From the NCBI RefSeq assembly GCF_007826885.1, contig NZ_ML675588.1:5762-69761 (forward strand): 64,000 nt of DNA, read 5' to 3'. Positions within the stretch are counted from its first letter, which is position 1. Every line of letters begins with the position of its first letter. Source of the DNA: Candidatus Nitrosocosmicus arcticus. GTDB taxonomy: Archaea > Thermoproteota > Nitrososphaeria > Nitrososphaerales > Nitrososphaeraceae. Positions 6,746-57,328 of the stretch are shown here, in pieces. Position numbers and translations under genes: made by a program. A model generated the notes under the pieces. That model saw nothing but the letters and a program-made list of their open reading frames with translations, made no database searches and was not told the origin of the DNA.

Positions 6746-7207
6746 TTGGGCGCCGATAAAAATTCAGGCATGGATGATCCAGATCTTGAATTAATTAAAA
6801 AAAGAAAGATGAAAAAGCTGCAAGAGCAATTAGCCACCAAAGAAAAGGACAAGATCAATTTGGAACTCCAGGATAAAACAAATAAAAATAAACCAGAAGG
6901 AGTTGATTCTGAAAGAAATTTCTTGCTGCGCTATCTGTACGATAGAGGTGATGAAGTTTTAAAACTCGCAGAACAGCAATTTCCTTTGCAAACTAAAATT
7001 ATTATAAAGAGATTAAATGAATTGATTCGATTTGGGGAGATTTCTAAAATATCGGGTGGAGATCTGCTTGCGGTATATAGATCATTAGGTTTGAACATTC
7101 GAGTTGATACACACATTTCCATATCTGATCATGGTAAAACGATAAGTTTCTCTGATAAACTGAAACAGTCTAATGATGCAGATCCGGATTCTGATGGATT
7201 ACTATAA
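6746..7207 (+). CDS. PDCD5/TFAR19-family DNA-binding protein
   Basis: The archaeal PDCD5 family consists of small basic helical proteins thought to bind DNA. The frame opens with DDPDLELIKKRKMKKLQEQ, the characteristic start of this family. A charged linker follows, then a helical core (about residues 55-110, NFLLRYLYDRGDEVLKLAEQ to LAVYRSLGL) and an acidic tail. At 153 residues it is longer than the usual 110-120, with extra sequence at the C-terminal end. The TTG at 6746 directly follows the rtcB stop. The internal ATG at 6770 (MDDPDLE) is a strong alternative start that would match the family length better. Likely translated with rtcB. Confidence 0.8.
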   Translation: MGADKNSGMDDPDLELIKKRKMKKLQEQLATKEKDKINLELQDKTNKNKPEGVDSERNFLLRYLYDRGDEVLKLAEQQFPLQTKIIIKRLNELIRFGEISKISGGDLLAVYRSLGLNIRVDTHISISDHGKTISFSDKLKQSNDADPDSDGLL

Positions 7208-40541: not shown

Positions 40542-40727
40542 TTAATCAAGTTCTGAACCACACTTAAAGCACTTGAGATTTCCAACAATATATTCACCCA
40601 TTTTAAAACCACATTTAATGCAATCTATTTTATGCTTTCCATAACTTTCCTTTTCCTCTTGTGAATCCTCAAGCTCTTCTAATCTGATATATTGAAACAA
40701 CAAATTAGGAATGACAATAATTTTCAT
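40542..40727 (-). CDS. Small zinc-ribbon protein
   Basis: The 61-residue product ends in a classic zinc ribbon: CIKCGFKMGEYIVGNLKCFKCG, two C-x2-C knuckles about 14 residues apart. The first 35 residues are hydrophobic then acidic (LEELEDSQEEKE). An isolated gene. Zinc binding is secure from the motif; role unknown, though such ribbons are often nucleic-acid or protein-binding. Confidence 0.6.
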   Translation of the reverse strand: MKIIVIPNLLFQYIRLEELEDSQEEKESYGKHKIDCIKCGFKMGEYIVGNLKCFKCGSELD

Positions 40728-41868: not shown

Positions 41869-42588
41869 GTGGTGATTATGTTGCAAGTATTTGGAAATAA
41901 TAATCTTAACAATGTTAAAAATGACGAATCCGGAGTCCTCATTGTAGTTGAAGGAATAGACGGATCAGGCAAATCTACACAAATTCATTTGGTGGATAGA
42001 TGGTTACGCTCTAAAGGATACGATGTTTTTTTTACAGAGTGGAATTCTTCCGAGACCGTGAAAGAAATTACCTCCAAAGGAAAAAAAAAAGTAAGCTTAA
42101 CACCGATGACTTTTTCACTATTACATTCAACAGATTTTGCTGACAGATATGAAAAGAATATTTATCCGTTGCTGAGAGCTGGTTATATCGTTCTTGCAGA
42201 TAGGTATATCTACACAGCGTTAGCAAGAGATACAGTAAGGGGATGTGACAAATCTTGGGTGAAGAATATGTACAGTTATGCTCGAAAACCTGATTTAACT
42301 TTTTATTTCAGGGTACCAATCGAAACCGCGGTAGATAGAATTATTTCCGGACGACCAAAACTGAAACACTATGAAGCTGGGATGGATCTTGGACTAAGTA
42401 AAGATGAATATGAAAGTTATAGAATATTTCAGGGAAGAATTGTTGATGAGTATGAATCGATGGTTAATGATGAAAATTTTATAGTAATTGATGGGACACT
42501 TGATATAGAAAAACAACAAAATATTGTAAGAAGAAACGTATTGAAGACGTTAAAATTGAAAAATCGGATACAAGGAAATACTACTTGA
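41869..42588 (+). CDS. Thymidylate-kinase-like P-loop protein, first of a tandem pair
   Basis: The 239-residue protein has the Tmk-family P-loop EGIDGSGKST (28-37) with intact Lys35. It has the DRY element ADRYIYTALARDTVRG and a lid/substrate region with KLKHYEAGMDLGLSKDEYESY. The strand LTFYFRVP before the lid is also typical. Genuine dTMP kinases have DRYxxSxxAYQ rather than DRYIYTALAR, so the substrate may not be dTMP. GTG 41869 or, more likely, ATG 41878 is the start. It is followed after 33 bases by a paralogue. Both lie upstream of CHAD and SixA genes, so a phosphate or polyphosphate link is possible but inferred. Confidence 0.8.
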   Translation: MVIMLQVFGNNNLNNVKNDESGVLIVVEGIDGSGKSTQIHLVDRWLRSKGYDVFFTEWNSSETVKEITSKGKKKVSLTPMTFSLLHSTDFADRYEKNIYPLLRAGYIVLADRYIYTALARDTVRGCDKSWVKNMYSYARKPDLTFYFRVPIETAVDRIISGRPKLKHYEAGMDLGLSKDEYESYRIFQGRIVDEYESMVNDENFIVIDGTLDIEKQQNIVRRNVLKTLKLKNRIQGNTT

Positions 42589-42621: not shown

Positions 42622-43392
42622 ATGACCTCAAGAATATTAACAAAGAAAAAATATTCGACTAATGATGACAAAGGCAATAATAAAATTAAATTTATCGACC
42701 ATTCAGGAATAAAATATCTTAAAGACATTGAAATCCATGGATCGTTCATCGTAATAGAAGGACCAGATGCCTCGGGAAGGAGTACTCAAATTCAAAAAAT
42801 AACCGAGAAATTAGAGGCTGATGGACACGCAGTGGTTAATACCGGACTAAAAAGATCTGCTCTCATTTCGAAGGGGATAATTGAAGCGAAACGAAACTAT
42901 CAAGTTGGAAGAAGAACTATGGCATTGTATTATGCAGCAGATTTCGCCGATCAGTTGGAAAATAAAATAATTCCTGCCCTTAAAGCTGGGTTTGTCGTAA
43001 TTTCTGACAGGTATATCTATACCCTTATTGCGAGAAGTTCGGTTAGAGGAATAAATAAAAATTGGTTACATCAATTACATAGTTTTGCAATTAAACCCGA
43101 CCTTATTTTCTATCTGAATGTGGATCCATATAATTTGATACATAGAGTCTTCAAAAAGAATAAATCGCTTGATTATTATGAATCGGGAGCAGATCTAGGT
43201 ATTTCGGCAGATATTTTTGATTCCTTTATTAAATATCAATATTTATTGAAAAAAGAATTCAATGTTATGCAAAAAAAATACGGACTTATTGATATCGATG
43301 GTGATAAAGACATTGAAGATATTAACGACCAAATTCAATCAAAAATAAGTGAATTTCTAAATCATAATAAGAAGAATATTACCATAATTTAA
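42622..43392 (+). CDS. Thymidylate-kinase-like protein with altered P-loop, second of the pair
   Basis: The 256-residue paralogue of the preceding protein keeps the fold: P-loop position EGPDASGRST (46-55), DRYIYTLIARSSVRG, LIFYLNV and the lid LDYYESGADLGISADIFDSF. The P-loop Lys, essential for phosphate transfer in nearly all kinases, is Arg53 here. The protein may therefore be inactive, act as a regulatory partner of the first, or use a different chemistry. It also has a 40-residue N-terminal extension. 33 bases separate the two genes, so they are surely co-transcribed. Confidence 0.8.
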   Translation: MTSRILTKKKYSTNDDKGNNKIKFIDHSGIKYLKDIEIHGSFIVIEGPDASGRSTQIQKITEKLEADGHAVVNTGLKRSALISKGIIEAKRNYQVGRRTMALYYAADFADQLENKIIPALKAGFVVISDRYIYTLIARSSVRGINKNWLHQLHSFAIKPDLIFYLNVDPYNLIHRVFKKNKSLDYYESGADLGISADIFDSFIKYQYLLKKEFNVMQKKYGLIDIDGDKDIEDINDQIQSKISEFLNHNKKNITII

Positions 43393-43900
43393 CTATGCAA
43401 TATGACATCTTGAGTTTGCTGTTCCTTGGATAGGCGAGGATTACGACAATCCGTTTCATTCTTATCAAATGATTTGTTGATATTGTTTTCCATGATGCCT
43501 GCAACTCAATTGATTTTATAGAAATCCAATTCAATGGAATAATACTTGGTCACACGGTAAGTTATTTTTCATTTGCTCCCGATTTGTTGAATAATTAAAA
43601 AGTAATTCTTGTGATTATTATTTTTAATACTATTTTATTGCGAATACACCGAATACATCGAAAATCAGTTGAAATTGTTTTCTGAAATCAGAATGAATTC
43701 AGATAACATCTCATTTTCTCTTTATGATGATGAAATAGTTGTAATGCATTACTTGTAATATTTCTTTAGATCACATTAAAGAATTTTGATTTCTAGTTTA
43801 AATGATAGTTAGTCACTACTCCATTATAGGTATTGTCTGTTATATATTATATAGTAACTATTAGGACAATCGTTAAATCCCTTACCGCGATAGCTTAATT
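43393..43900. other. Spacer without recognised gene
   Basis: About 510 AT-rich bases after the kinase pair. No supported frame or RNA; a zinc microprotein gene starts at its end. Confidence 0.4.
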
Positions 43901-44062
43901 ATGGTGAACGAGAGCACAACACTATATCCAGAGGAAGGGAAATTATGCATGGGTTGTTTTCATCAAAGATTTAATCATCGATATAACGTTAAACAACAAA
44001 ATAATAGTCTTCTTTGTGATCACCCTAAATGCAATTGTATCCAATTTGTAGAATGGGTTTGA
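43901..44062 (+). CDS. CxxCFH zinc microprotein (53 aa)
   Basis: ATG 43901 to TGA 44060-44062. The frame reads MVNESTTLYPEEGKLCMGCF, then HQRFNHRYNVKQQN, then LCDHPKCNCIQFVEWV. Potential zinc ligands are C-x2-C-F-H near the start, and C-D-H-P-x-C-x-C near the end. A second gene at 56122-56289 repeats the same design with diverged sequence, supporting reality. Too short for routine gene calling. Function unknown. Confidence 0.6.
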   Translation: MVNESTTLYPEEGKLCMGCFHQRFNHRYNVKQQNNSLLCDHPKCNCIQFVEWV

Positions 44063-44181
44063 TAATCCTTAATCATAATCTTTTGACCGTACCGTAACAT
44101 ACGCCTTAAAGGATATTTGATTAATATTTAATTTCTTAAAAAAGAAAATAACAAGGTAGTGTCAAAATCTATTTTATTCTT

Positions 44182-44325
44182 TCAACATCGATGCAAATAT
44201 CCATCAATATAATATATTATTCCGTTATTTTGTACAAATGAAGGTAGAGATTCTTCTGTGAAGCGACAATGTTTGTTTCCATACATTATATCTTCAATAA
44301 GGTTCTCACGCCTCATTAAGGCCAT
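44182..44325 (-). CDS. Possible 47-aa microprotein
   Basis: ATG 44325 to TGA at 44182. It reads MALMRRENLIEDIMYGNKHC, then RFTEESLPSFVQNN, then GIIYYIDGYLHRC. Balanced amino acid mix and Cys/His positions look like a small real protein, possibly metal-binding. No second copy was found in this window, so support is limited. Confidence 0.3.
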   Translation of the reverse strand: MALMRRENLIEDIMYGNKHCRFTEESLPSFVQNNGIIYYIDGYLHRC

Positions 44326-44438
44326 CTTTATTCCTGGAAGATAATATATATTTTAAATTAGAACCTTTGAAAGGCTACTTTTTTCTTATTTTTCCGTCTC
44401 ACTTTGATTTATTATATTACCAAATTATCCATGTTAGA

Positions 44439-45347
44439 CTATTTTGAGCCACCAGTCACCATCAATGATTTAGATGTGGTAGATCTGTTAAAATTAACGA
44501 AATTATCAAATTTTGTCTTTCTTATCTTCATAATATTTGTTAATGCATTTGTGATTGTGGGACTATTTGATCCTTGACGTTGCCTCAAATAATCAATAAC
44601 AATGTCATAGTCATGGATATCTCCAAGGATCTCTTGAATTTTTTCAAGGTGTTCGAGGATCTTGTGATCATTATTGTCAACTAATTTATTTGTAATATCA
44701 TTTGTGTTTGATTTAGTAGTATTATCATTCTCTTTATTTATTACAAGTTCGATCAAGTAGCGCAATTTCTTTGAATCTTTCCTTAGTTCGTGTAATTCCG
44801 TGATTCTACTTTCGTCACCGATTACTACTGGAATTTTATCTTCTATTCTATTCTTTAACTCCCTAGTGATCTTTGCCAATCTTTTCATCGCATTCCCTTT
44901 AAAGTTCTTATCAGTCTTATTTTTGTCGTATAAACTAGGGACAATTAATTCCCTTAAACTTAGAGCAATTGTTCTAGCTTCCTCGAGTTGATGTCCTCTG
45001 TCCTGCATTAAGGGGTTCTCATAATATTCAAGTTGCTGTTCAGACATTTTACCTTCTTTAGCCAACTTTTCCAGGATTATATCAATATCTCTTATCTTAC
45101 TGTTAGTTTTGAAAAATCTTTTACCTACTCGAGCAAACTCTTCAACTTTCTTTTTTTTTCGTATTTGTTTAGGACTTGATTGATACGTCGCTTCGAGTCT
45201 CCGTAGCGATGTTCGCATATGATGAATGTTATCTTCCGTTGGATTTTCTAAATACTTGTCTAATTTTACATAAACCCTTTTAAAATTTTGAGTACAGTTA
45301 TGAACATACGTGTTAACGTCAAAATGAATGTAGTAATATTCTAACAT
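44439..45347 (-). CDS. CHAD-domain protein (polyphosphate-binding family)
   Basis: CHAD domains are helical bundles with conserved basic residues that bind polyphosphate. In this 302-residue protein the two half-repeats show the motifs TEDNIHHMRTSLRRLEAT (about 36-53) and RITELHELRKDSKKLRYLIELV (about 185-206), each with the His/Arg set that lines the polyphosphate groove. A Thr/Asn-rich linker and HLEKIQEILGDIHDYDIVIDYL complete the second half. Arg/Lys content is high throughout. CHAD commonly sits near CYTH and SixA genes; here CYTH is about 5 kb away and sixA follows 280 bases beyond on the same strand. Confidence 0.9.
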   Translation of the reverse strand: MLEYYYIHFDVNTYVHNCTQNFKRVYVKLDKYLENPTEDNIHHMRTSLRRLEATYQSSPKQIRKKKKVEEFARVGKRFFKTNSKIRDIDIILEKLAKEGKMSEQQLEYYENPLMQDRGHQLEEARTIALSLRELIVPSLYDKNKTDKNFKGNAMKRLAKITRELKNRIEDKIPVVIGDESRITELHELRKDSKKLRYLIELVINKENDNTTKSNTNDITNKLVDNNDHKILEHLEKIQEILGDIHDYDIVIDYLRQRQGSNSPTITNALTNIMKIRKTKFDNFVNFNRSTTSKSLMVTGGSK

Positions 45348-45627
45348 ACGGTTAGATATTATTATTATTATTATACTATTTTAAGTATTAGGATCTATTA
45401 CTATAAGATGGATATTCTATTAGATATTCTTATGGAATGGATTTCACTCCAAAATATGCCAAATGGGAAAAAGGGAAAAGAGTAATATGCAATATATATA
45501 ATGTAATTGAGATATCCAATTATTCTTAAAAAAGATACACAATCAAGATTAAAAGTCTAAATATTTCTATTTTTGTTCTCTATTTCGCCGTGTTGACAAT
45601 TTCTTAATAAGTAATATGCATACACAG

Positions 45628-46152
45628 CTATTCGATTTTTTTAGGTCTCCAAATATTTACAAGTTCAGATCTAAAATTGCAATGTAGGTTGATAGATTTC
45701 CAATTTTCAATGCTTAAATTTATTTGAACAAGGGTACAGGTCGGTATCTTTATTGTTTTATTGATTATAATGCCTACCAACTCTTCTAGATCGGGATTGT
45801 GTCCAATGATTAGTAATTTTTGTTTGTCATTAGCTACCGCAGTTAGTGCATTAATGTATGCATCAATACCACCTTGATGCAATGAAAAATTAACCTCAAC
45901 GAGATTATTATAGCCAGAATATCTACATATGTATTTAGTAGTTTCAATAGCTCTAAGCGCTGAAGAGGTTATTATCGTATCTGGCATCATATTTGTTTTT
46001 TTTAAATATTCTCCCATTTTGATAGCTTCGCTTCTACCTCTCTTGTTAAGGGGCCTATCGTGATCATCTAATTTTTTATCCTTCCAGCTGGATTTTGCAT
46101 GTCTGAGTATTAATAAAACTTTGTAAATTTTCTCACCCCAACTAACACGCAT
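45628..46152 (-). CDS. sixA: SixA-type phosphohistidine phosphatase
   Basis: SixA proteins are small histidine phosphatases of the phosphoglycerate mutase superfamily. The 174-residue frame has the RHG-type motif LILRHAKSSWKDK (His18), the second-half GHNPDLEEL motif with its His, and the family opening DDHDRPLNKRGRSEA. Bacterial SixA removes phosphate from histidine on signalling proteins. In archaea and many bacteria the genes are adjacent to CHAD, as here. Substrate not established. Same strand as the CHAD gene. Confidence 0.9.
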   Translation of the reverse strand: MRVSWGEKIYKVLLILRHAKSSWKDKKLDDHDRPLNKRGRSEAIKMGEYLKKTNMMPDTIITSSALRAIETTKYICRYSGYNNLVEVNFSLHQGGIDAYINALTAVANDKQKLLIIGHNPDLEELVGIIINKTIKIPTCTLVQINLSIENWKSINLHCNFRSELVNIWRPKKIE

Positions 46153-46482
46153 GAAAATACTGTTGATAACATACTAAAAAAGTAACCTATAGGGTATTCT
46201 TGGAATTATCATAAGGGAATTAACCAATCTCTACTGTTTCTATCTTCTTATACTATATGATATCTTAATTCACAATTTGTCAAGAAAAAAAAGATAAAGC
46301 CATGTAAATTGCAGAACCTAAATAAAAAAGGATCTAGGGTATGAAAAAGATGGTCTGACCTTAATTTTACTCCTGTCCGACTGCGCTATTTCCCTTATTA
46401 CTATTAAATTCGAGCGCAACGTTATTGCATGAAAAGCCTGTATTATTTTCCGATTCACAAACGGCTGTTTGATTAGAGAATG
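46153..46482. other. Spacer without recognised gene
   Basis: About 330 AT-rich bases upstream of sixA. Nothing recognised. Confidence 0.4.
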
Positions 46483-46632
46483 TTAACTAGCCCAACTATT
46501 GGATCGAATCATTCTCATTTTTGCATGCAAATTATTTGTTAAACTCATTGTGAGTAATCCAATTACTAAAAATCCTACAAAAAAGCCTGTTAAATTTCTA
46601 TTAGTTTGTTTCATTACAGTGAGTGATTTCAT
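46483..46632 (-). CDS. Possible 49-aa single-helix membrane or exported peptide
   Basis: ATG 46632 to TAA at 46483. It reads MKSLTVMKQTNRNLTGFFVG, then FLVIGLLTMSLTNNLHA, then KMRMIRSNSWAS. A basic start, one hydrophobic segment and a possible cleavage site after NLHA look like a signal peptide or single-span peptide. No homologue in the window. Modest support. Confidence 0.4.
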   Translation of the reverse strand: MKSLTVMKQTNRNLTGFFVGFLVIGLLTMSLTNNLHAKMRMIRSNSWAS

Positions 46633-47545
46633 AATATATTTATGAATTGTAAAATATTATTTGATTAAAGTTCGATTATCGATGAGTCATAAGATATTAC
46701 ATAGTATCTTATTTCTCATAGTTACTATAAACATAAATGATTCATATAGTAAAATATTTTATAATACCAACTCATCTAGTTAGAGTGATTATAGGGACAT
46801 TACTCATAACAAGAGATTTCCTTCTATTAGAAGAAAGTAATGAAGTTGGATCTAACTCATGATAAATGATCCAAGTAATAATGGATCCACACCAGATTTT
46901 TCCTTTCGACATAATGCACGATGGGATAGAGATCACTAGCTAATAGTAACAATATTTATTCATCCTTTGTAAATAATGGAAGGAAATAGATTAATTATTT
47001 TTATAAAAGTTAAAGGCATCAATTGGAAGTCCACCTGGTGAACTCTCTCATACTTTTGTGTATAAGTAATGTCATAAACCGTCATCAAGCCTATCGAGAC
47101 GTTTTGATAGCATCTCCACATTACTATTACACCTATGACATGATTGTAGCCTTTACTTTCATGGTTAATCAAGTGTTTCTGTAATTCATAATTATGCCTG
47201 GTTCGTTTATAAATTCGTTGTATATTTTGACAATAGTTCATATATTTTAGATTTTTACAATAGTGGATTTCCTCATATACCTTAATGGACAACTTTATTA
47301 CAACTGTATTAAGAAAAGATCGTGAACAAGCTCAAAGGATTCAAGCGTTTCATAACATGTCAATCTATATTCAAAAAAGATTATTAATCCAGCCATGACA
47401 TTGGTACTTGAAATCCCATAAGACTTGTTAAGGTTTCATTTTCTGGCAACAGATCATTTTACTATTTGATCCTTTTTGATAAATCTGATATATACATATA
47501 TCATTCGAGGAATAAATTAAATGACCTCTGACAATCATGATCTAA
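46633..47545. other. Spacer with one unsupported frame
   Basis: About 910 AT-rich bases. A minus-strand frame of 110 residues (46960-47292) has mixed composition but no motif, and is left out. No RNA could be supported. Promoter elements for the next gene probably lie near 47490 (GATATATACATATATC). Confidence 0.4.
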
Positions 47546-48151
47546 ATGTTAGAATCCACAGAAATTCGCTGGTTTTTTAAAGGAAGTGTCCCCTCTAACA
47601 TAAGTAAAATTTTGGCTGAGACAAGTCCAGATGTTTATGAGAGCCGAACTGATTATTATTTATTCGTACAAGGTTGCGATAATATTGGTATAAAAATAAG
47701 AAATTCTAGATTGGAGATTAAATGGCGTAGAGATGTTCAGCCGTATGATGTGGATAAACTGAATATTAGTGGCAATATCGAACGATGGAAAAGATGGGAA
47801 TGGACTAATAAAACAGCATCAACCGAGATCGAACAATTAACTAATGGGGGTGATGTAAATCCATGGATAAAGGTAGACAAGAACCGAATACAGAAGAAAT
47901 TTGATCTCCGTGATGATATCTTAGTTGCTGTCCCCCTTGGTGAACTACACTCTGATTTTGCTATGGAGGTTACCGAATTGAAATCAAATGGAAAATCATG
48001 GTGGACTATTGGCTTTGATTCGTTTACCGTACAGGATCGTTCTTTTTTTGACCAAATTATTGAAACCTGTCTAATACTACCAGCTGGAGTAGATCTGAAA
48101 AAGGAATGGTCATTCGGATATCCTCATTGGTTATCTCATGTCGTTAATTGA
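47546..48151 (+). CDS. Conserved protein, possible CYTH-like fold
   Basis: The 201-residue product starts MLESTEIRWFFKGSVPSNI and continues with RTDYYLFVQGCDNIGIKIRNSRLEIKWR, SGNIERWKRWEWTNKT, LVAVPLGELHSDFAMEVTEL and SWWTIGFDSFT. The alternating charged strands (IKIR, LEIKWRR, AMEVTEL) and the paired Lys/Arg look like a triphosphate-tunnel (CYTH-like) family seen in bacteria, but this is a resemblance only. The EIRWF opening could replace the ExExK element. Its position among CHAD, SixA and CYTH genes supports a phosphate link. Strand opposite to sixA. Confidence 0.6.
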   Translation: MLESTEIRWFFKGSVPSNISKILAETSPDVYESRTDYYLFVQGCDNIGIKIRNSRLEIKWRRDVQPYDVDKLNISGNIERWKRWEWTNKTASTEIEQLTNGGDVNPWIKVDKNRIQKKFDLRDDILVAVPLGELHSDFAMEVTELKSNGKSWWTIGFDSFTVQDRSFFDQIIETCLILPAGVDLKKEWSFGYPHWLSHVVN

Positions 48152-48301
48152 CTACAATTCTACCTTTAGCATCATCTTAAAAGGTGTCAATAAGCTATAT
48201 TCTAACCTGTTTATGTTATCCGCCTTCTTTCCAAGATGTTATTTTCGTATCTCTGTCGGTGGAAAGTATTAGTGCTTCAGATTAACAGACATAATCCATA
48301 T

Positions 48302-49213
48302 TTACTGACGCTCTAACGTTTCCCTATCCCATTTGGCAGTAGTGGCGGCAGCTACATAGGTACTCTGAAGAAAATTCAATAATACCTCATCAGATGAATT
48401 TGATGCACGAACTATATCATATGGTAACATAAACTCTCCCATGTTAGACTCATACACTGCTTCTCTTGGCTGGATGGCAAATTCCTTATATCCATTTGGC
48501 TCAGGATAGGCATAGGAGTAAAAAATCGGGCTATCTATATGACCACCACCTGGCCAGAAACCACAACTACTTACTTCATGTGAATATGCTTCAACTGCAA
48601 CAAATCTAGCCACGTTAGGCGCTCCTGGATGCATGGGAGCTGTCCGTCCAGAAAAACGTGTCACAGCCAAATCAAAAGCTCCCCAGAAAAAATGAACAGG
48701 ACTCACTTTACCTGTGAATTGTGAACGGAACTCCGTAAACACTCTATATACTTGAGATAAAATATGCCAAAAGCGCCCTACATATTCACGATCATATGAT
48801 TCATGTTTGTAATCCTCTTCAAACGGGGTCCGATCTGGAACCTCGACTGGTGTTGTCCAGATAGGAACATATATGTTAATATCTCCTAGGGCAGACATTA
48901 TTTCTTGGTAAAAATTAGCTACTGGACGAGATTCCAAGGTAATTTTTTTGGTGATACCTTCACTTGTTTGAATAATAAGTAAGTGATCAATAAAATCAAA
49001 ATCTATCTGCAACTGTAGATTGCTATAGGACATTGCCGAGGTTGTAAGTCCCCTAGAGTTGATATACAGAGTAGTATTCCACCAATGATTCACTAGAGGT
49101 TCTAGTGCAAGTCGTATTTTTCCAACTATTTGAGTCAATCTGTGTAGTGTATCATAGGTATCTTTCCATTCTGATAATGGCAGCGCTGGCCAGATATTCT
49201 TATTTAACGACAT
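48302..49213 (-). CDS. DUF5996-family protein
   Basis: The 303-residue protein shows the family features: WPALPLSEWKDTYDTLHRLTQIVGKIRLAL at the start, NHWWNTTLYINSRGLTTSAM, an FDFIDHLLII strand, and a His/Trp-rich catalytic-looking half (SPVHFFWGAFDLAVTRFSG, SHEVSSCGFWPGGG). The family is mostly bacterial and its function is unknown to me. Its presence here suggests transfer, though thaumarchaea share it. Isolated, with a short spacer to the preceding gene. Confidence 0.8.
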   Translation of the reverse strand: MSLNKNIWPALPLSEWKDTYDTLHRLTQIVGKIRLALEPLVNHWWNTTLYINSRGLTTSAMSYSNLQLQIDFDFIDHLLIIQTSEGITKKITLESRPVANFYQEIMSALGDINIYVPIWTTPVEVPDRTPFEEDYKHESYDREYVGRFWHILSQVYRVFTEFRSQFTGKVSPVHFFWGAFDLAVTRFSGRTAPMHPGAPNVARFVAVEAYSHEVSSCGFWPGGGHIDSPIFYSYAYPEPNGYKEFAIQPREAVYESNMGEFMLPYDIVRASNSSDEVLLNFLQSTYVAAATTAKWDRETLERQ

Positions 49214-49739
49214 ATCTAATCATACGTGTTCTTTATCAATAACTGTTATTATATGATACTTTCATCGATAAAATTTTTTATGTTATCGTCGTGATACCAT
49301 AATTATACCTCTGCCTCTAGAAAATGCTATAGTAAATCTCTAGACGAGAGGAAAGAGAATGACAACTCAATAGTGGTGCAAAGATTATCAGTCCATTTCT
49401 TATGTTTCCATGCATAATTGATGGTGATAATGATATTACCCATAAAGGAACTATCTAATGTGGTTCCTTAATGTTCAATAGCTTAAATGACGTTATAAAA
49501 AACTATGAATATCACAGATAGATTAGGAGATGTCAACCCCAAGGTGGTAGATACAACAAAGATATTGCAGAAAAAGCAAAAGGCAAGATAGATTAACAAC
49601 CGTTTCTTTCTTTTATCACTCGTAACTAATGACTTTCTCATTATCTCCATTTTGGTATATAGATCCTATAGTCATAATTTTATATGAAGATCTATGAGTA
49701 AAATGTATTTATACATAGATTAGTTGTTAAAATATTAAC
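49214..49739. other. Spacer without recognised gene
   Basis: About 530 AT-rich bases. A weak AAGGAAC/GTTCCTT hairpin around 49445-49470 is the only structure seen. Nothing else recognised. Confidence 0.4.
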
Positions 49740-49955
49740 ATGGTAACAGAATTCGACAATATTTCTAATTACTTGTCAACGGAGCCCCCGTTAGCTCCAT
49801 CCTTAACCAAATCCATGCCAAGTATATACAAATGTTCATCTACAACCTGTAACGAAAAATCTATTTCAAGATGTACTATATGTTCTGAATATTATTGTTA
49901 CACTCATGTATATGGCCATATACATTCAATAGAACATTTTGAAATTCTAAAGTAA
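49740..49955 (+). CDS. Small B-box-like zinc-finger protein
   Basis: The 71-residue product has a Ser/Pro-rich start and then a dense ligand cluster: KCSSTTCNEKSISRCTICSEYYCYTHVYGHIHSIEH. Cysteines at C-x4-C, C-x2-C and a later C, followed by several His, match the cross-brace pattern of B-box zinc fingers, which in eukaryotes mediate protein contacts. The ATG at 49740 is preceded by an A/T-rich stretch. Archaeal B-box-like proteins are known but their role is not. Isolated gene. Confidence 0.6.
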   Translation: MVTEFDNISNYLSTEPPLAPSLTKSMPSIYKCSSTTCNEKSISRCTICSEYYCYTHVYGHIHSIEHFEILK

Positions 49956-50474
49956 AATATCTATTTATTTTAATTATGCCTAAATATTGCTTGAGTTAGA
50001 AGGGGTAAATAACTTTTAACCTTATCTTTGGAATGCTTAAAACCATTGAGTTGTAAGTCTACCAACTTGCAAGAAATTTTCACTCAATTTTTTGAAGGAT
50101 TAATATTGAATTTCCCTACGTATATTTCATATCAATATTTACCATAAATTAGTATCTTTTCTTGTATTGATTTCAGATATATTTATTAAATATGGTTTGT
50201 GAAAATAATTTTCTTATTGCATAGCCACATATAATATGTCCGGAGCGTATCGTATAATTTATTACTATTGTGTTGAAACACTCGGTCAACTTATCAAATT
50301 CAAGTATATGTCGGTAATATTCAGAATATGATAAAATCTACTAATATATCCTATATACCTGCAAATTTGAATTCAGGGCACTTACTGACCCAGTATGTAT
50401 TTAACCTTTACATAAGGTATGATTATAGATGCCATACAAGTATCATAGGTAACTTTATATCGTAAAAAATTTTC
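49956..50474. other. Spacer without recognised gene
   Basis: About 520 AT-rich bases. No supported frame or RNA. Confidence 0.4.
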
Positions 50475-51442
50475 TTGTCATTATCTTTGAAGTTAATATT
50501 TTTTAATAATACTAATTTTAAGACATCGCTTTCCTCTACTGAGGATGATATCTGTTCTAGTATTTCTGCAAAGTTGATGGGACAACATTTGGCTTTGAGA
50601 AACATTGCAGTTTTAAACACCGTTTACAATATCAAATCTATTGAAATCCCATCCGAGCTCTACTTATTAAACAACTTAATTCACGAGTATTTTCCCGCCA
50701 TTACCATAACAATTACGAAAACTAGAGAAGTTTTTCAAAAATCAAGCAATCATTATTCGCCCTCACAAAACGGCTCTCTACAAACTGATTTATTGGCAAG
50801 TTTGAACGAATCCACTTCATCCATAAGGATTCCATTTAATTCTATACTGCATATTAATTCAGAAACTGAGCTAGTAATTGATGAAACAAATCATCCATGG
50901 GATTTTTTGAAATCAATCCAAAAGATTTTGAATGTGGGGGTAACCTCTACAAAGATATCATCAAGAGCAAAAATATCTAAAACAAGCATAATAGAGGGAC
51001 CTTGCATAATTGAAGAAGGTGTAGTATTAGATGACTTTTGCAAACTTAAGGGACCTGTTTATATTGGGAAAAATAGTTTTATTGGAATGGGTTCTCTAGT
51101 AAGAATAGCATTCTAGAACAGAATACGAAAATAGGTTTTAATTGTGAGATAGGTAAATCATATTTTGCGGGAAATGATAAGATTTCTCATAATAATGTAA
51201 TATTGGATACCATAGTGGGACAGAATGTATGGTTTGGGGGATATTCCGGTACCGCCAACGTTTTGTTAGATAGAAAAAATGTAAGATATAAGATAAATGA
51301 TAATCTTGTAGACACCGGAACAGATCATTTTGGATCGGTCATAGGTAATAATTGCTGTATTGGTGCATCTGTAATTATATTACCTGGAAGAAAAATTCCA
51401 CCCAATACTCAGATTCAAGCGGGGACGATAATCAAATCTTGA
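50475..51442 (+). CDS. GlmU-like left-handed beta-helix protein, frameshifted
   Basis: Two frames combine. The first (50475-51116) has a nucleotidyltransferase-like opening (KLIFFNNTNFKTSLSSTEDD, then LMGQHLALRNIAV) and the first beta-helix turns (SSRAKISKTSIIEGPCIIEE, LKGPVYIGKNSFIGMGSLVR). The second (to 51442) continues RNSILEQNTKIGFNCEIGKS, VGQNVWFGGYSG, GSVIGNNCCIGASVIILPGRK and QAGTIIKS, the hexapeptide repeats of sugar-phosphate acyltransferases. One added A near 51104 joins them. The product resembles the bacterial GlmU-like family with a shortened N-terminal domain. Likely role: sugar-nucleotide or glycan precursor synthesis, inferred. Confidence 0.65.
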
Positions 51443-51705
51443 ACAATAACAGTAATTTAATTTATAGAAAGAAAGAAACTAAACATAAGAACGTATCACT
51501 CGTCTGGACATATATGGTAATCAAAATAACACAATTATGTAAATTTTGTTATTAATAATAAGGATATTAAAAGACTATTTTCGAAAATGATATATTACAA
51601 TTTCTTCTTTTTCTGTTAGTTTATTTACATTTTTTTCGGTACTCTGACCTCGACTATCTTATCGTTAGGAAAAACGAACAGATTTCCGAATTATTTTAGA
51701 AATAT

Positions 51706-52185
51706 TTAATTCTGTGTTCTTATTTTCATGCCATAGTTAGATGCCAATCTGGCAAACGTTTGTTTTTGTCCGTTATCCATTGACTGGGGCTTTACATTAT
51801 TGTTAGAAACTTCCACGCCTACTTCAACAAAGAGTTGCTCCATTCCGGCTGGGGATAATACAATTATTATCTTTGCAGTCTCAGTAGTTTCATTTTTGAA
51901 ACTATGTAAAACATTGGGTGGAATATTAACGAACATTCCAGGCTTGGCTTCAATTCGTTGGCCGTCCACATTAAATAATAGTTGTCCTTCAATAATGTAA
52001 AACCCTTCATGTTCACGTGTTTGAATGTGCGGAATCGGGCCTCCTCCTGGAAAAACCTTAGCTTCGATAAAACTGTAAGTCCCAGCAGTGTCTTCCTTTG
52101 ATGCAAGTATTGAGTTGATGTCGCCAGCTACAGCTATATGTTTTCCTTTGTTAGGTTCAATGACTTTTACTTTGCTGCTTTTCAT
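51706..52185 (-). CDS. Cupin-domain protein
   Basis: The 159-residue product carries cupin motif 1, GGGPIPHIQTREHEGFYIIEG (two His and a Glu for metal), then the intervening strand LLFNVDGQRIEAKPG and cupin motif 2 PPNVLHSFKNETTETAK (third His). The metal site is complete. Such single-cupin proteins may be metal enzymes or sugar-binding proteins; nothing further can be said. Isolated and on the opposite strand to the GlmU-like gene. Confidence 0.85.
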   Translation of the reverse strand: MKSSKVKVIEPNKGKHIAVAGDINSILASKEDTAGTYSFIEAKVFPGGGPIPHIQTREHEGFYIIEGQLLFNVDGQRIEAKPGMFVNIPPNVLHSFKNETTETAKIIIVLSPAGMEQLFVEVGVEVSNNNVKPQSMDNGQKQTFARLASNYGMKIRTQN

Positions 52186-52570
52186 ACTGAAACTCGATAC
52201 TTCTAAAAAATAAAGATTTACTTATTGGATAATATCGACAATAAGAAATTGGACTTTTGTTGAATTCTTTTTCATAGGAATAGAAAATAGCAAAGATTAA
52301 AGTCAATTCTTGGTTTGATTTCCATATTGAATATCTGTCTAACAATACAAAAGTATATTCTCTATATAGTGCCTATACGAAATGCTCAATATCTAATAGT
52401 TGCAATAGTATGTACCATGTTATTTACTATCAAAGAGCATGACAAAGAAACTATCCATAATAGTATTAGATATTCTAGTAACAAGATAGTGGGTGAACGT
52501 CGGATAGTTATCTCATTCAAGACCGATAGAAATTATCTCCTTAACGCCGAAAAGGAGAAAAATAAGAAGT
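52186..52570. other. Spacer with one uncertain frame
   Basis: About 385 bases. A frame at 52315-52578 (87 residues) overlaps the next gene's start and lacks any motif, so it is left out. Confidence 0.4.
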
Positions 52571-52846
52571 ATGATTGAAACTGTCAGTAGAAACAGCAAC
52601 AGTAATTTTATATCTTTTACTCCCGAACAATTATTAGTATTAGAGGAGATATTAGAAAAGGAAGTAAGTTATTATCTAAAAAATAGAATGTTTCAACAAT
52701 TTATTAAAGATTGTAATTTATTATCCGTTCAAGATGAGCGGAGAAACGACATAACACGATATCAAAATATAGGTAAGATGCGACTCAAGGTTGTAAAAGC
52801 TTTAAATGCTGTAGATGATCGTTCTGAGAATATAATGTATAATTGA
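52571..52846 (+). CDS. Small conserved-looking helical protein
   Basis: A 91-residue product with a polar start, then helices (PEQLLVLEEILEKEVSYYLK, FQQFIKDCNLLS) and a charged tail. Coding-like composition. No motif recognised. ATG at 52571 preceded by a GGAGAAAAATA stretch, which could act as a ribosome-binding site. Confidence 0.5.
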   Translation: MIETVSRNSNSNFISFTPEQLLVLEEILEKEVSYYLKNRMFQQFIKDCNLLSVQDERRNDITRYQNIGKMRLKVVKALNAVDDRSENIMYN

Positions 52847-53183
52847 GAAAAAATGGTATTGTTACTGGTTATTATATTTAATACACTGAGTTAAACCATA
52901 AGGTTGATCCTACTCAGTGATTTTAGCACCGCTAATCATCTTATATCTTTATCCTGTCAAAACTAAATTAGTTACAAATAAGTAACTTTAGAATGACTGT
53001 CCTATATCGAGGATCTGGTTGTAAGTATGAAGCTGGATAAGAGATCGACTATCATCTTAATTACGTTTTAAAATCATACCTGGTATCATAGATCGGATAA
53101 GAACTATATTATTTGGCTTTTCCTCATACATTACGACAATTCTGGAGACAATGGATAAAAGACATCCAAACATTGCTTAGAAC
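52847..53183. other. Spacer without recognised gene
   Basis: About 340 AT-rich bases, no supported frame or RNA. Confidence 0.4.
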
Positions 53184-53519
53184 ATGACCATTAGAGAATT
53201 GTCCATCAAAATAGGACATAAAGATGTTCACACAAGTGATGAGCGATTTCATCTTGATGGCCTACGAATTGGTATTTTCGGGATGAATAATATTCAATGT
53301 GATTATCAATTAGTGATGACCATGATAAACAATGAATCTCCATATACTATTACCCTGGAACCTGCTGGAATAGCTTCTGAAACATTGACATTATTCATAC
53401 ATGATTTACTAAATAAATATACTCTAACTACTCAGGAGGTAATTGTAACTGACTCGGAAGGGCTTCCCCATCATTTAAAGAATCTTATATTCAGATTAAA
53501 ATATACACAATACAAATAA
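53184..53519 (+). CDS. Small protein of unknown function
   Basis: A 111-residue frame with an alpha/beta-like pattern: MTIRELSIKIGHKDVH, DGLRIGIFGMNNIQCDYQLV, YTITLEPAGIAS, LFIHDLLNKYTLTTQEVIVT. The mix of strands and helices suggests a folded domain. No family recognised. Isolated; ATG start at 53184. Confidence 0.5.
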   Translation: MTIRELSIKIGHKDVHTSDERFHLDGLRIGIFGMNNIQCDYQLVMTMINNESPYTITLEPAGIASETLTLFIHDLLNKYTLTTQEVIVTDSEGLPHHLKNLIFRLKYTQYK

Positions 53520-54041
53520 TCAAAGCAAAAAGCAGTCTAAATAATATGAATAATAAGACCCTCAACGAACACGTTAGAACGAATGTTTGTGAGAAAAGGA
53601 ATCATGAAAAAGGGCTATTAATTATAGAATCCACAACATTGAATATTATTGAATGTTTCCGACCAATGCTTCATCTTCTGTTAGACCTGAATATCGGTAT
53701 GTTAAATCGCATATTCCTATCCATAGACTTGTTGATTGGGGTAGTTATGATGTCAAGCAAGTTAGATCTGTGACTATGTAATAGTTCTTCAAAATATTTT
53801 CACTTGAAAAGATCCTTTCCTCATTTGGCTAACATCCATCCATACATAAAATCTAGATGTGATTGAGATCATTGCAACAAATGACTAATCAGTTTTTTAT
53901 TTTTGGTTCGATTCAATTATCTCTCAAACCACTCATGTAGTACCCTTTAGAATAATATTTAAGATGAATTTTTATTCCTATTACTAACTATATGATTTAC
54001 TTACACATCTTTTATAGATACCTTGTTTTGTAATTCATTGA
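53520..54041. other. Spacer with one weak frame
   Basis: About 520 bases. A frame at 53546-53773 (75 residues) lacks motifs and conserved-looking blocks and is left out. No RNA seen. Confidence 0.4.
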
Positions 54042-54317
54042 ATGCGATTAAAAATTAAGGTCATAGAAGAAAGTGACGCATTAACCAAGCCATTTAATAT
54101 CAAATTTAACAAGGGGAGCAAGATACTGGGATTCCATAGCGATGATTATCAGGATAAGATACTAGTTTATTTTGAGAATGATGAGACTGAAGAGAAGAAA
54201 GTGAGGACCTTTCGCTTTATGGAAGACGGCGATAGTATATCAAATCCAGAAGAATACCGGTATCTTGGAACTAGAGACAGTAGTTCTCGATTTCTTTTTG
54301 AAATATTGAGTCGTTGA
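54042..54317 (+). CDS. Small protein, possibly DUF7352-like
   Basis: The 91-residue product reads MRLKIKVIEESDALTKPFNI, then KFNKGSKILGFHSDDYQDKI, VYFENDETEEKKVRTFRFM and EEYRYLGTRDSSSRFLFEIL. The beta-rich pattern with a late YRYLGT block recalls a small domain seen in phage and archaeal hypothetical proteins; the resemblance is tentative. ATG at 54042. Isolated. Confidence 0.5.
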   Translation: MRLKIKVIEESDALTKPFNIKFNKGSKILGFHSDDYQDKILVYFENDETEEKKVRTFRFMEDGDSISNPEEYRYLGTRDSSSRFLFEILSR

Positions 54318-55054
54318 TTAAGAAGTTGTATTTTAGAAAAGGTTGAAAACATTTTCAATGTACCAATTAATAGTGATAGAACATAGGAGGTTAAGGAAAT
54401 CCAGTTCGTGCAAATCTTTCTAGATTTACGAGACAATTGTCTATATTTCATCTAGATTATATACAATAAGTCTAAATCCTATTGATACCATAATATTCGT
54501 ATTCTAGGAGACATGCTTCATAGAATTAGGATCGGGTCATGTAGCACACTGTTGCTTTCTAGTTACCCTATCCTTTTGTTACCTTCAACTTAACACTATG
54601 GGGATGTTTTGTCATAGAAATACTAAAAAATGTTTACTATGTTTCAAATATGGCATTACGCAATAAATACAAAAGGAAGAGGACATAACAATCGCTTATG
54701 ACGAGAACTTTTTTATTCGTATTGTGCAATATAGGAACAAACTCCCATTTTGGAAATCGTTTTTCTTATTGACTTGTAAGATACTTTCATATCATCCAGA
54801 TCGGGCAATGTCATAAGAATTCGGTAATGTAATAATAATAATAATTATTCCAAGATAAGCACTATATGAATTCATAAACATAGCATTCTCTGTTAGATAA
54901 TTGATGATCATCATGCAGCACTGGACCAAACTATTCAAAATAGAGCCTGTCTATCTATATCTGTTAAAAAGTTCTTGGCATTAAACCAAGAAACCCAATA
55001 ATAAAATAGTCTACAGTAAAAGAATACTTCAACTATTAATCTTGTGTCGTGTCT
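54318..55054. other. Spacer without recognised gene
   Basis: About 740 AT-rich bases, with a short AATAATAATAATAATT run near 54830. No supported frame or RNA. Confidence 0.4.
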
Positions 55055-55566
55055 CTAATTATTTGGTTCTTCGTCATCTTCTTCCTCTTGCAACGAAAGT
55101 TGTCCTCTAATCTCTCCCAGCGGGAAATCAGATGTCTGAATATTTACATAATCATTACCTTCGGTCATATTTCCAACTAAATCATTGATTGTCGCATCAG
55201 TCATTGGACCTTTCAAGTCTTCATTTGTAATGTTCCCGGCCAAATCTACAATAGGTACACCTACTGGATTTTTGGTTTCAAATAATGATACTACAACTTT
55301 TCCATGTTCGTCACTATCTCCTTGATGAATTCCAATATGCTTAACATTGGCCAAGTCTTCGGCATACAAGTCGTATTGCAAGGTATCATTATTACCAATA
55401 ATGATAATATTACCAAAGGCATTCGTGTTTGTAGGAAGTGGTTGTTCTTCGCCTGTTAGTTCAGTTACAAAAATTTGAGCATAGATATACTAGGCATAAC
55501 GAATGATACCAAACCTATCATCGCGCTTCCTGCGATTAATATGGTAAATATAGACTTGTAATTCAT
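55055..55566 (-). CDS. CHRD-domain exported protein, frameshifted
   Basis: CHRD domains (chordin-type) occur in secreted proteins. The main frame (to 55055) reads LQYDLYAEDLANVKHIGIHQ, GDSDEHGKVVVSLF, GPMTDATINDLVGNMTEGND and FPLGEIRGQLSLQ, the standard CHRD half. Upstream, ATG 55566 opens a signal peptide in another frame (MNYKSIFTILIAGSAMIGLV, SFVMPSIS). The join at about 55483 would give the classic cleavage site YAQ and continue IFVTELTGEEQPLP. One added base repairs it. Role in thaumarchaea unknown; likely extracellular. Confidence 0.7.
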
Positions 55567-56121
55567 ATGCTGGAAAATTGAACTTGTGTTAATAAGAATG
55601 ACTCACATGTTTTATGATAGTCATATATATCTATAGACATCATTTATTACATCATATTAAATAAATTCAGTAGGTTATTACGTTGATTAATCTAATGTTT
55701 GGAATGATTTTATACGAATCCAATTCAAATAGGTATAACATTGTAATTATTAGTATAACATCATAATTATTGCAGTACTTACTATTGGCTTTTCCTTCTA
55801 ATTGTTTTTAATTTCTTAATATAAATTCTCTGCATGAGATCTAAAATCAAAAATTACCATGGTTACTAATTTATCATTGTCGTTTAATAAATACTGGTTA
55901 AAGAATCTTTTATTGTTATCTTGCCAAGATTATTACCGTACCTAATGAACTGTGTAGGGGCAGAACACCCTCATTTCTATTTAATTTCTGACAAAATTGA
56001 ATTTATTATGATAGGATAGGTTGAGATTTTATGGGATCTGTTTCATCAATTAGAGATTTTCATTGAAACCGTCATAACTATTATATTAGATTGATATCTA
56101 TAGACATTTTGGTTATCTATA
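55567..56121. other. Spacer without recognised gene
   Basis: About 555 AT-rich bases between the CHRD gene and a zinc microprotein. Nothing else recognised. Confidence 0.4.
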
Positions 56122-56289
56122 TTGATAAAGACTCTTGCCACGAGAAGCGACGCAGAACTATATAAACCCTGTATGAATTGTTTTCATGCAAAAGAGGGCC
56201 ACCTATATTATGAGCTCCAAGATAATAATAAACACCCATGCATGAAACTTGGATGTAACTGCAGTCAATATAATTATGACCTTAAATAG
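56122..56289 (+). CDS. CxxCFH zinc microprotein (55 aa)
   Basis: TTG 56122 to TAG 56287-56289. It reads MIKTLATRSDAELYKPCMNC, then FHAKEGHLYYELQDNN, then KHPCMKLGCNCSQYNYDLK. The pattern C-x2-C-F-H near the middle and H-P-C, C-x-C near the end is the same design as the microprotein at 43901-44062, which lies about 12 kb away. The two share the CFH and CNC signatures but little else, so they are old paralogues. Zinc binding is likely; function unknown. Confidence 0.6.
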   Translation: MIKTLATRSDAELYKPCMNCFHAKEGHLYYELQDNNKHPCMKLGCNCSQYNYDLK

Positions 56290-56512: not shown

Positions 56513-57328
56513 ATGACAGTTGATATCGTTCAATCTTTAATTCTGGGAATCGTGCAAGGAATAACGGAGTGGTTGCCAATATCTAGTTCAGGTCATCTAG
56601 CACTAACCCAGCTATTACTTAATATTCATGTACCTATCTTCTTTGATTTAATTCTTCATATAGGAACTCTGGCGGGTCTCCTAGGGTTTTATCGAACTGA
56701 TTTGTCAATGATTTTCAGGTCTGTTTTCTTTTCTCGTTCCATGTCTTTACAAGCCGTCAAAGAATATCGAAAACTATTGATGCTTATCGTAATTGGAACC
56801 ATTCCTACTGCAGTTATCGCATTTGCACTAAAGTCTTTGTTCGAATTTTCATTTTATGATTTCTTTTTATTATCTATAGGATTCTTGATAAGTGGTATAT
56901 TCATTTATATCACTAAATTTTTCAAGAAAGGTTCCAAGGAAATTAATAATCTTGACGCTGTTTTAATCGGGATAGCACAGGGATTCTCTGTATTCTCAAG
57001 CATTTCTCGAAGTGGTATTACAATTTCTTTAGGAATGATAAGGCAAATTGATCATGCTCAATTGGTCCGGTTTTCATTCCTGTTATCTATTCCGGCCATT
57101 ATTGGGGGCTCTGTATTTGATTTTGTTCTAATGGATGATGCCCAGTTATCTACAATAGGAGAAATTCCACTCTCGTCTTATATAGTTGGATTTTTATCAG
57201 CCGCAATAATTGGGTATATAACAATAAAACTGTTAATAGATATCATAAACAGAGGAAAACTGTACTATTTTGGATACTACTGTTTAGGACTAGCAGCGAT
57301 ATTACTAATATATTCATTCATCTTATAA
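56513..57328 (+). CDS. uppP: Undecaprenyl-diphosphatase family protein (UppP/BacA)
   Basis: UppP removes a phosphate from polyprenyl diphosphate carriers; in archaea the likely substrate is dolichyl or a related lipid diphosphate used for glycosylation. The 271-residue protein has several membrane helices. Motif 1 is GIVQGITEWLPISSSGH (12-28), which contains the key Glu, and motif 2 is FSSISRSGITISLG (about 162-175). The Ser/Arg pattern matches BacA-type enzymes. An archaeal start with TATA elements upstream is probable. Fits a phosphate-rich neighbourhood, with the pst genes 2.5 kb downstream. Confidence 0.9.
   Translation: MTVDIVQSLILGIVQGITEWLPISSSGHLALTQLLLNIHVPIFFDLILHIGTLAGLLGFYRTDLSMIFRSVFFSRSMSLQAVKEYRKLLMLIVIGTIPTAVIAFALKSLFEFSFYDFFLLSIGFLISGIFIYITKFFKKGSKEINNLDAVLIGIAQGFSVFSSISRSGITISLGMIRQIDHAQLVRFSFLLSIPAIIGGSVFDFVLMDDAQLSTIGEIPLSSYIVGFLSAAIIGYITIKLLIDIINRGKLYYFGYYCLGLAAILLIYSFIL

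Follow-up and report, generated by a model that had tools for sequence, protein, structure and literature searches.

The C(P)XCG microproteins of Haloferax volcanii, such as HVO_2753 and HVO_0758, are archaeal, shorter than 70 residues and multicopy, with predicted metal sites and no fused domain (PMC11241148, PMC6562870). Deletion of haloarchaeal zinc-finger microproteins of this size results in conditional phenotypes in stress, biofilm formation and swarming (PMC6562870). Here, we describe two genes that share these general traits, genes A and B, within a 64,000-nucleotide stretch of Candidatus Nitrosocosmicus arcticus (contig NZ_ML675588.1, positions 5,762 to 69,761; hereafter, the window). 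They are two of approximately eight members in their own genome of a widespread, undescribed family of archaeal microproteins.

43904..44062, + strand: gene A, 52-residue microprotein, most likely with a GTG start; orthologues in place in genomes G008, G009 and G016; putative ligands (53-residue numbering) C16, C19, H21, H26, C39, C44 and C46, then aromatic F49
56122..56289, + strand: gene B, 55-residue microprotein, probably with a TTG start; orthologues in G008, G009 and G016 upstream of BacA/UppP; putative ligands C17, C20, H22, H27, C40, C45 and C47, then aromatic Y50

Genes A and B encode constrained paralogous microproteins

A sequence-only reading of the window had proposed two paralogous open reading frames (ORFs) on the + strand, at 43901-44062 (53 residues) and 56122-56289 (55 residues). 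Both are present, and their paralogy is borne out by 44% identity across a 36-residue core (blastp E = 2e-8); when gene A was searched against its whole genome (tblastn), gene B was the only other match (6.5e-5). The Cys/His ligands had been assigned almost correctly. The start of gene A needs revision. The proposed ATG at 43901 is AAG in two orthologues, whereas the next codon, GTG at 43904, is kept in all four aligned genomes; gene A therefore most likely starts one codon downstream and encodes 52 residues. For gene B, TTG 56122 is the sole start codon common to the four genomes. Its orthologues have an ATG four codons later, where the window has CTT, and TTG 56122 is probably the start in the window, as a best guess rather than a certainty. 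Gene A of G016 lacks one base close to its end, a deletion that may be an assembly error and that alters the last few residues beyond the final ligand. The two genes had also been thought to carry shared ligands on different linkers. This does not quite hold for the pair: in each protein, 12 residues separate the second His from the third Cys, and 4 separate the third Cys from the fourth; linkers differ in the wider family only (5-15 residues in the middle, and 2 or 4 between the later Cys).

Purifying selection acts on both genes. In comparisons of the window species with the Nitrosocosmicus-like genomes G008, G009 and G016, the ratio of nonsynonymous to synonymous rates (dN/dS) by the NG86 method was 0.16-0.21 for gene A (0.14-0.24 being given for the orthologues) and 0.13-0.16 for gene B (0.13-0.31 likewise). 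Amino acid changes were fewer than in a neutral simulation matched for the number of changes in all six comparisons involving the window species (P from 0.0062 down to 0/5000), and pairs among the three relatives alone went in the same direction, mostly without significance in this low-power setting. The YN00 method either failed or returned higher, noisier ratios (0.24-0.73), and we regard the neutral simulation as the safer evidence of constraint because YN00 is noisy or fails on such short genes.

Genes A and B are thus real protein-coding genes. The earlier reading had named a lack of similar short ORFs in relatives, or of constraint, as its refutation; these data answer that test, as both relatives and constraint are present. 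Their small size and non-ATG starts would suit a null explanation, in which the two frames are open by chance and the Cys/His patterns are a coincidence. However, the window contains exactly two instances of the signature C-x2-C-x-H-x4-H-x(5-20)-C-x(2-4)-C-x-C-x2-[FYW] and 300 simulated windows of equal composition contain none, orthologues under selection exist, and relatives yield well over a hundred profile matches compared to 1 of 148 control genomes. The chance of this explanation is negligible, and as far as sequence allows it is already refuted.

A widespread and uncatalogued family of archaeal microproteins

A profile (A3) was built from an alignment of 47 diverse members with rows of 39-68 residues (mostly 40-55). 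The seven ligand columns C, C, H, H, C, C, C (C2H2C3) are invariant in all 47, and genes A and B fit exactly the family signature C-x2-C-x-H-x4-H-x(5-15)-C-x(2,4)-C-x-C-x2-[FY]. With a phage member added, the ligand pattern fits 48 of 48 sequences, and the aromatic F/Y past the last Cys is found in 47. The ORFs of the members examined are short and stand alone, without a recognizable fused domain, and the longer open frames that were read have internal start codons just ahead of the motif. The earlier proposal of selection on a zinc site therefore stands for the Cys/His ligands, on the strength of this invariance and of dN/dS well below 1; zinc itself is a further step, taken up below. The suggestion that the family had been overlooked is likewise supported, and its extent had been underestimated. 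Neither gene A nor gene B had a match above the curated cutoff in Pfam or NCBIfam, and the wider family gave only weak matches there, so that no curated domain library names a family of this conservation. Searches of the open literature, by consensus peptide and on the zinc microproteins of such archaea, returned no description, although the family may have been mentioned earlier under the name of a hypothetical protein or an orthologous group.

At a profile threshold of E <= 0.001, A3 matched 63 of 70 genomes of the window's family, with 1-14 copies per genome and 8 in the genome of the window. In a sample of the phylum, it matched all 62 genomes (1.2-2.0 Mb) of a sister family of the same order, f2, nearly all in single copy, and no f2 genome is among the nonmatching genomes of that order; we take f2 to be, probably, Nitrosopumilaceae. 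An earlier, smaller profile built without f2 sequences had already matched 29 f2 genomes. Three genomes from one genus of a distant family also matched. None of the four genomes of a second sister family, f3 (probably Nitrosocaldaceae, again in our own assignment), did. Among bacterial controls, the single match in 148 genomes lay inside a 244-codon frame; therefore, Cys-rich composition alone does not account for the matches. Named close relatives matched by gene A belong only to Candidatus Nitrosocosmicus (Dino_bin19, whose contig is that of G009; WA-bin7; and strain SS). The near-constant single copy in the 62 genomes of a major ammonia-oxidizer family, together with the diverged copies of Nitrosocosmicus, suggests that the family is probably useful to its hosts, and the seven-ligand signature makes it easy to find and test.

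Two groups are supported in a tree of the family: gene A with its orthologues (100/100), and a single-copy subfamily (98/100) with the consensus MNCKRCHHT...GKC-IP-CTC-QY...IDEDLL. The remainder of the tree is unresolved, and the tree is too short for the subfamilies to be ordered. The one copy of f2 genomes belongs to the single-copy subfamily, which also occurs in three genera of the window's family; it is absent from all 15 genomes of the window's genus, which carry several diverged copies instead. In f2, its neighborhood (L086-L096, around position 7000) is conserved and comprises a gene for a 77-residue hypothetical protein, a zinc-type alcohol dehydrogenase gene and a thioredoxin-domain (YyaL/SPATA20-like) gene, all named by sequence recognition.

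Individual copies are gained and lost, as shown by two cases in which turnover is caught in progress, while the single-copy subfamily elsewhere is stable. In G007, a gene A-type copy has a near-identical duplicate within a block of about 1.4 kb (L038 7660-9094 and L039 3390-5620); the duplicated blocks are 99.9% and 97% identical, with about 0.8 kb between them in one copy only. In Nitrosocosmicus sp. SS (L123 1989-2087), a gene A-like copy has decayed, with a stop soon after the second His and similarity resuming in another frame. Other contigs of the genome carry the true relatives of genes A and B. Because copies are scattered, 1-14 per genome, and each sits alone by unrelated housekeeping genes, location does not make genes A and B a functional pair.

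Predicted structure, metal binding and function

Our best reading, which we hold with moderate confidence, is that genes A and B encode stand-alone C2H2C3 metal-binding microproteins with a small binding or regulatory role, copies of which are gained and lost in Nitrosocosmicus. The metal is probably zinc. One zinc needs four ligands and seven are invariant, and more than one metal is favored for that reason; a pair of metals sharing a ligand is the arrangement that would make best use of all seven. We propose that these seven residues coordinate either a single zinc ion or, with greater likelihood, a pair. A pair of tetrahedral zincs has eight coordination positions, for which seven residues would suffice if one cysteine bridged both. 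The metal would then give a fold to a chain that is too short to adopt one otherwise, leaving an exposed surface, variable between paralogues, that could bind a protein or nucleic acid partner, so that each copy might act as a small conditional regulator or adaptor. Such a role is plausible because Haloferax zinc microproteins of like size give conditional phenotypes, and the birth and death of copies (up to 14 per genome, with duplication and decay) is as expected of conditional accessory regulators and not of a core part.

Several points weigh against this reading. AlphaFold2 modeled gene A with middling confidence (mean predicted local distance difference test [pLDDT] of 78, predicted template modeling score [pTM] of 0.53), with almost no regular secondary structure, and a search of solved folds with that model returned no match. 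Metal binding is argued from ligand conservation and the regulatory role from analogy, and the gene neighborhoods offer no pointer to a partner or pathway. In Haloferax, 5 of the 14 predicted zinc microproteins that could be produced contained no zinc, and AlphaFold2 was unable to tell whether such sites bind metal (PMC11241148).

The single-copy subfamily gave a weaker model (pLDDT of 65). Small metal fingers often have scant regular secondary structure. A search of BFVD returned weak matches only, two of them uncharacterized mycobacteriophage proteins at E = 1.2-1.4.

Seven Cys/His in about 30 residues could also serve to buffer metal. The proteins would then be small metallochaperones or resemble metallothioneins, keeping zinc or copper in store or handing it on, with a copy number that follows metal load. 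Ammonia oxidizers are rich in copper enzymes, and copy number is variable in the window's family and single in the sister family, as metal buffering might produce. Yet the family does not vary in its ligand spacing or its hydrophobic aromatic, as expected of a structured finger, whereas metallothioneins tolerate ligand drift, and no metal transport or metal regulator genes were recognized beside the genes read. We consider metal buffering unlikely.

Alternatively, the cysteines could be thiol switches that sense redox state by disulfide formation or oxidative metal release, in place of a permanent structural metal site. The five cysteines form a close pair and a close triplet, a glutaredoxin/NrdH gene adjoins the family member in some phages, and a thioredoxin-domain gene lies near the single-copy subfamily. 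These neighbor links are not co-operonic, though, and the two histidines, for which disulfide switching has no need, are as invariant as the cysteines, which makes a redox switch improbable.

Upstream elements and neighboring genes

Sequence upstream of both genes is conserved among the four genomes.

43873..43878, + strand: putative TATA-like element TTAAAT, about 28 nucleotides before the gene A GTG; kept in four orthologues
56040..56121, + strand: conserved stretch upstream of gene B; CGTCATAACTATTATATTAG kept in four genomes with diverged flanks

Judged by eye, the position of TTAAAT is compatible with a leaderless archaeal transcript of gene A, and a T/A-rich element lies at a comparable distance in several paralogues too. 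The stretch before gene B is a probable promoter and 5' leader with approximate limits. A common operator upstream of genes A and B was sought and not established; TAACTATTA precedes both, and the longer pattern tested was no rarer than chance.

The neighbors of the two genes are as follows.

41869-42588 and 42622-43392, + strand: tandem thymidylate-kinase-like genes (PF02223, E = 1.5e-24 and 5.5e-25) preceding gene A; syntenic
44439-45347, - strand: CHAD-domain gene (PF05235) facing gene A; syntenic
45628-46152, - strand: histidine-phosphatase gene (PF00300) facing gene A; syntenic
56513..57328, + strand: BacA/UppP undecaprenyl-diphosphatase-like gene (PF02673, E = 6.9e-63), 3' of gene B; syntenic in three other genomes

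Orthologues of genes A and B in G008, G009 and G016 have these same neighbors wherever contigs allow, and G008 carries a third family copy about 1.3 kb before gene B. No evident operon includes either gene in the window. The tandem thymidylate-kinase-like genes are each approximately 87-94% identical to their own orthologues and clearly unlike each other.

Three further small ORFs of the window are of separate interest. The first, at 40542-40727 (- strand, 61 residues), has two CxxC pairs at its end and is 93% identical in G009 and 80% identical in G016 at the same place; it has no Pfam match and is likely another overlooked metal microprotein. The second, at 49740-49955 (+ strand, 71 residues), is Cys/His rich, with weak similarity to AN1-type zinc fingers (PF01428, E = 0.0036, under the cutoff). 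It had been suggested that genes A and B may belong to one set with the other zinc microproteins of this gene-poor zone; the suggestion finds no support, as these two ORFs differ from them in ligand layout (two CxxC pairs and AN1-like, respectively). The third, at 54042-54317 (+ strand, 91 residues), shows similarity to DUF7352 near the threshold (25.3 bits against a cutoff of 27) and is conserved in G016.

Comparison with known systems

The Haloferax C(P)XCG proteins differ from the family in ligand layout. They carry two C(P)XCG pairs, in contrast to C-x2-C-x-H-x4-H followed by C-x(2,4)-C-x-C here, and no C(P)XCG motif occurs in gene A or gene B. Churchill (PF06573; PDB 2jox) shares a local match, LCKNCHHVIARHEY, which contains C-x2-C-x-H-x4-H and covers the first half only. 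Its matches are nonsignificant (PDB, E = 0.96; Pfam, E = 0.011 for 1 of 47 members), with none for genes A and B. Churchill has a zinc binuclear cluster, according to the title of a 2007 paper by Lee et al. that PMC7614390 cites, and for our family it is best treated as a lead rather than a relation. FAM221A/B (PF14753, about 200 positions) matched one member at E = 0.015, below the cutoff in every member scanned, and had no match in the genome of the window; its Cys/His-rich layout is, we presume, similar to that of the family. The Churchill and FAM221 matches were put aside as weak, along with RING-type and cyclotide matches. Also rejected were deltaproteobacterial tblastn matches (L124 and L125), whose frame is internal to a solute-binding-protein-like gene that is far longer and read in a different frame, and a Nocardia plasmid match (E = 8) that misfits the motif.

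The nearest named relative, by sequence comparison, is phrog_1311, a phage family of unknown function. The paralogue on contig 2 of the window's genome matches it at E = 1.9e-4, and the archaeal profile matches two places in mycobacteriophage Dante (4.3e-5 and 0.003), one of which has relatives in approximately 230 phage records. These matches, and the turnover of copies in Nitrosocosmicus, are what a mobile or virus-linked role would predict, in which the family spread by virus exchange and serves phage-host interplay, the Nitrosocosmicus copies being accessory. Against such a role, genes A and B occupy conserved sites adjoining housekeeping genes, a member is kept in 62 of 62 sister-family genomes with a conserved neighborhood where read, and viral contigs scanned with the single-copy subfamily gave no match. 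We therefore assign it a low probability.

Gene A itself reaches phrog_1657 at best (E = 0.74) among the phrog families, and neither A nor B individually reaches phrog_1311. As the relation holds at the level of the family only, we do not file the two genes as members of phrog_1311. Like the archaeal proteins, phrog_1311 proteins are stand-alone (about 47-51 residues), and their ligands agree in order and in local spacing (C-x2-C-x-H-x4-H ... C-x2-C-x-C-x2-F). They differ in belonging to phages of actinobacteria and in their middle linker, which is 5 residues in Dante gp079 (47 residues) compared to mostly 10-15 in archaea. Because ligand order and spacing agree, common descent is likely, if unproven for so short a chain. 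It is possible, and we offer it tentatively, that all of these proteins represent an undescribed fold, in which the seven invariant ligands hold two metals in a shared cluster within about 35 residues. The fold would be present in almost all sampled genomes of two ammonia-oxidizing families, would serve as a set of small regulators in some lineages with up to 14 diverged copies, and would be adopted in the same form by the actinophage relatives. The family connects archaeal microproteins with a common, uncharacterized mycobacteriophage protein family.

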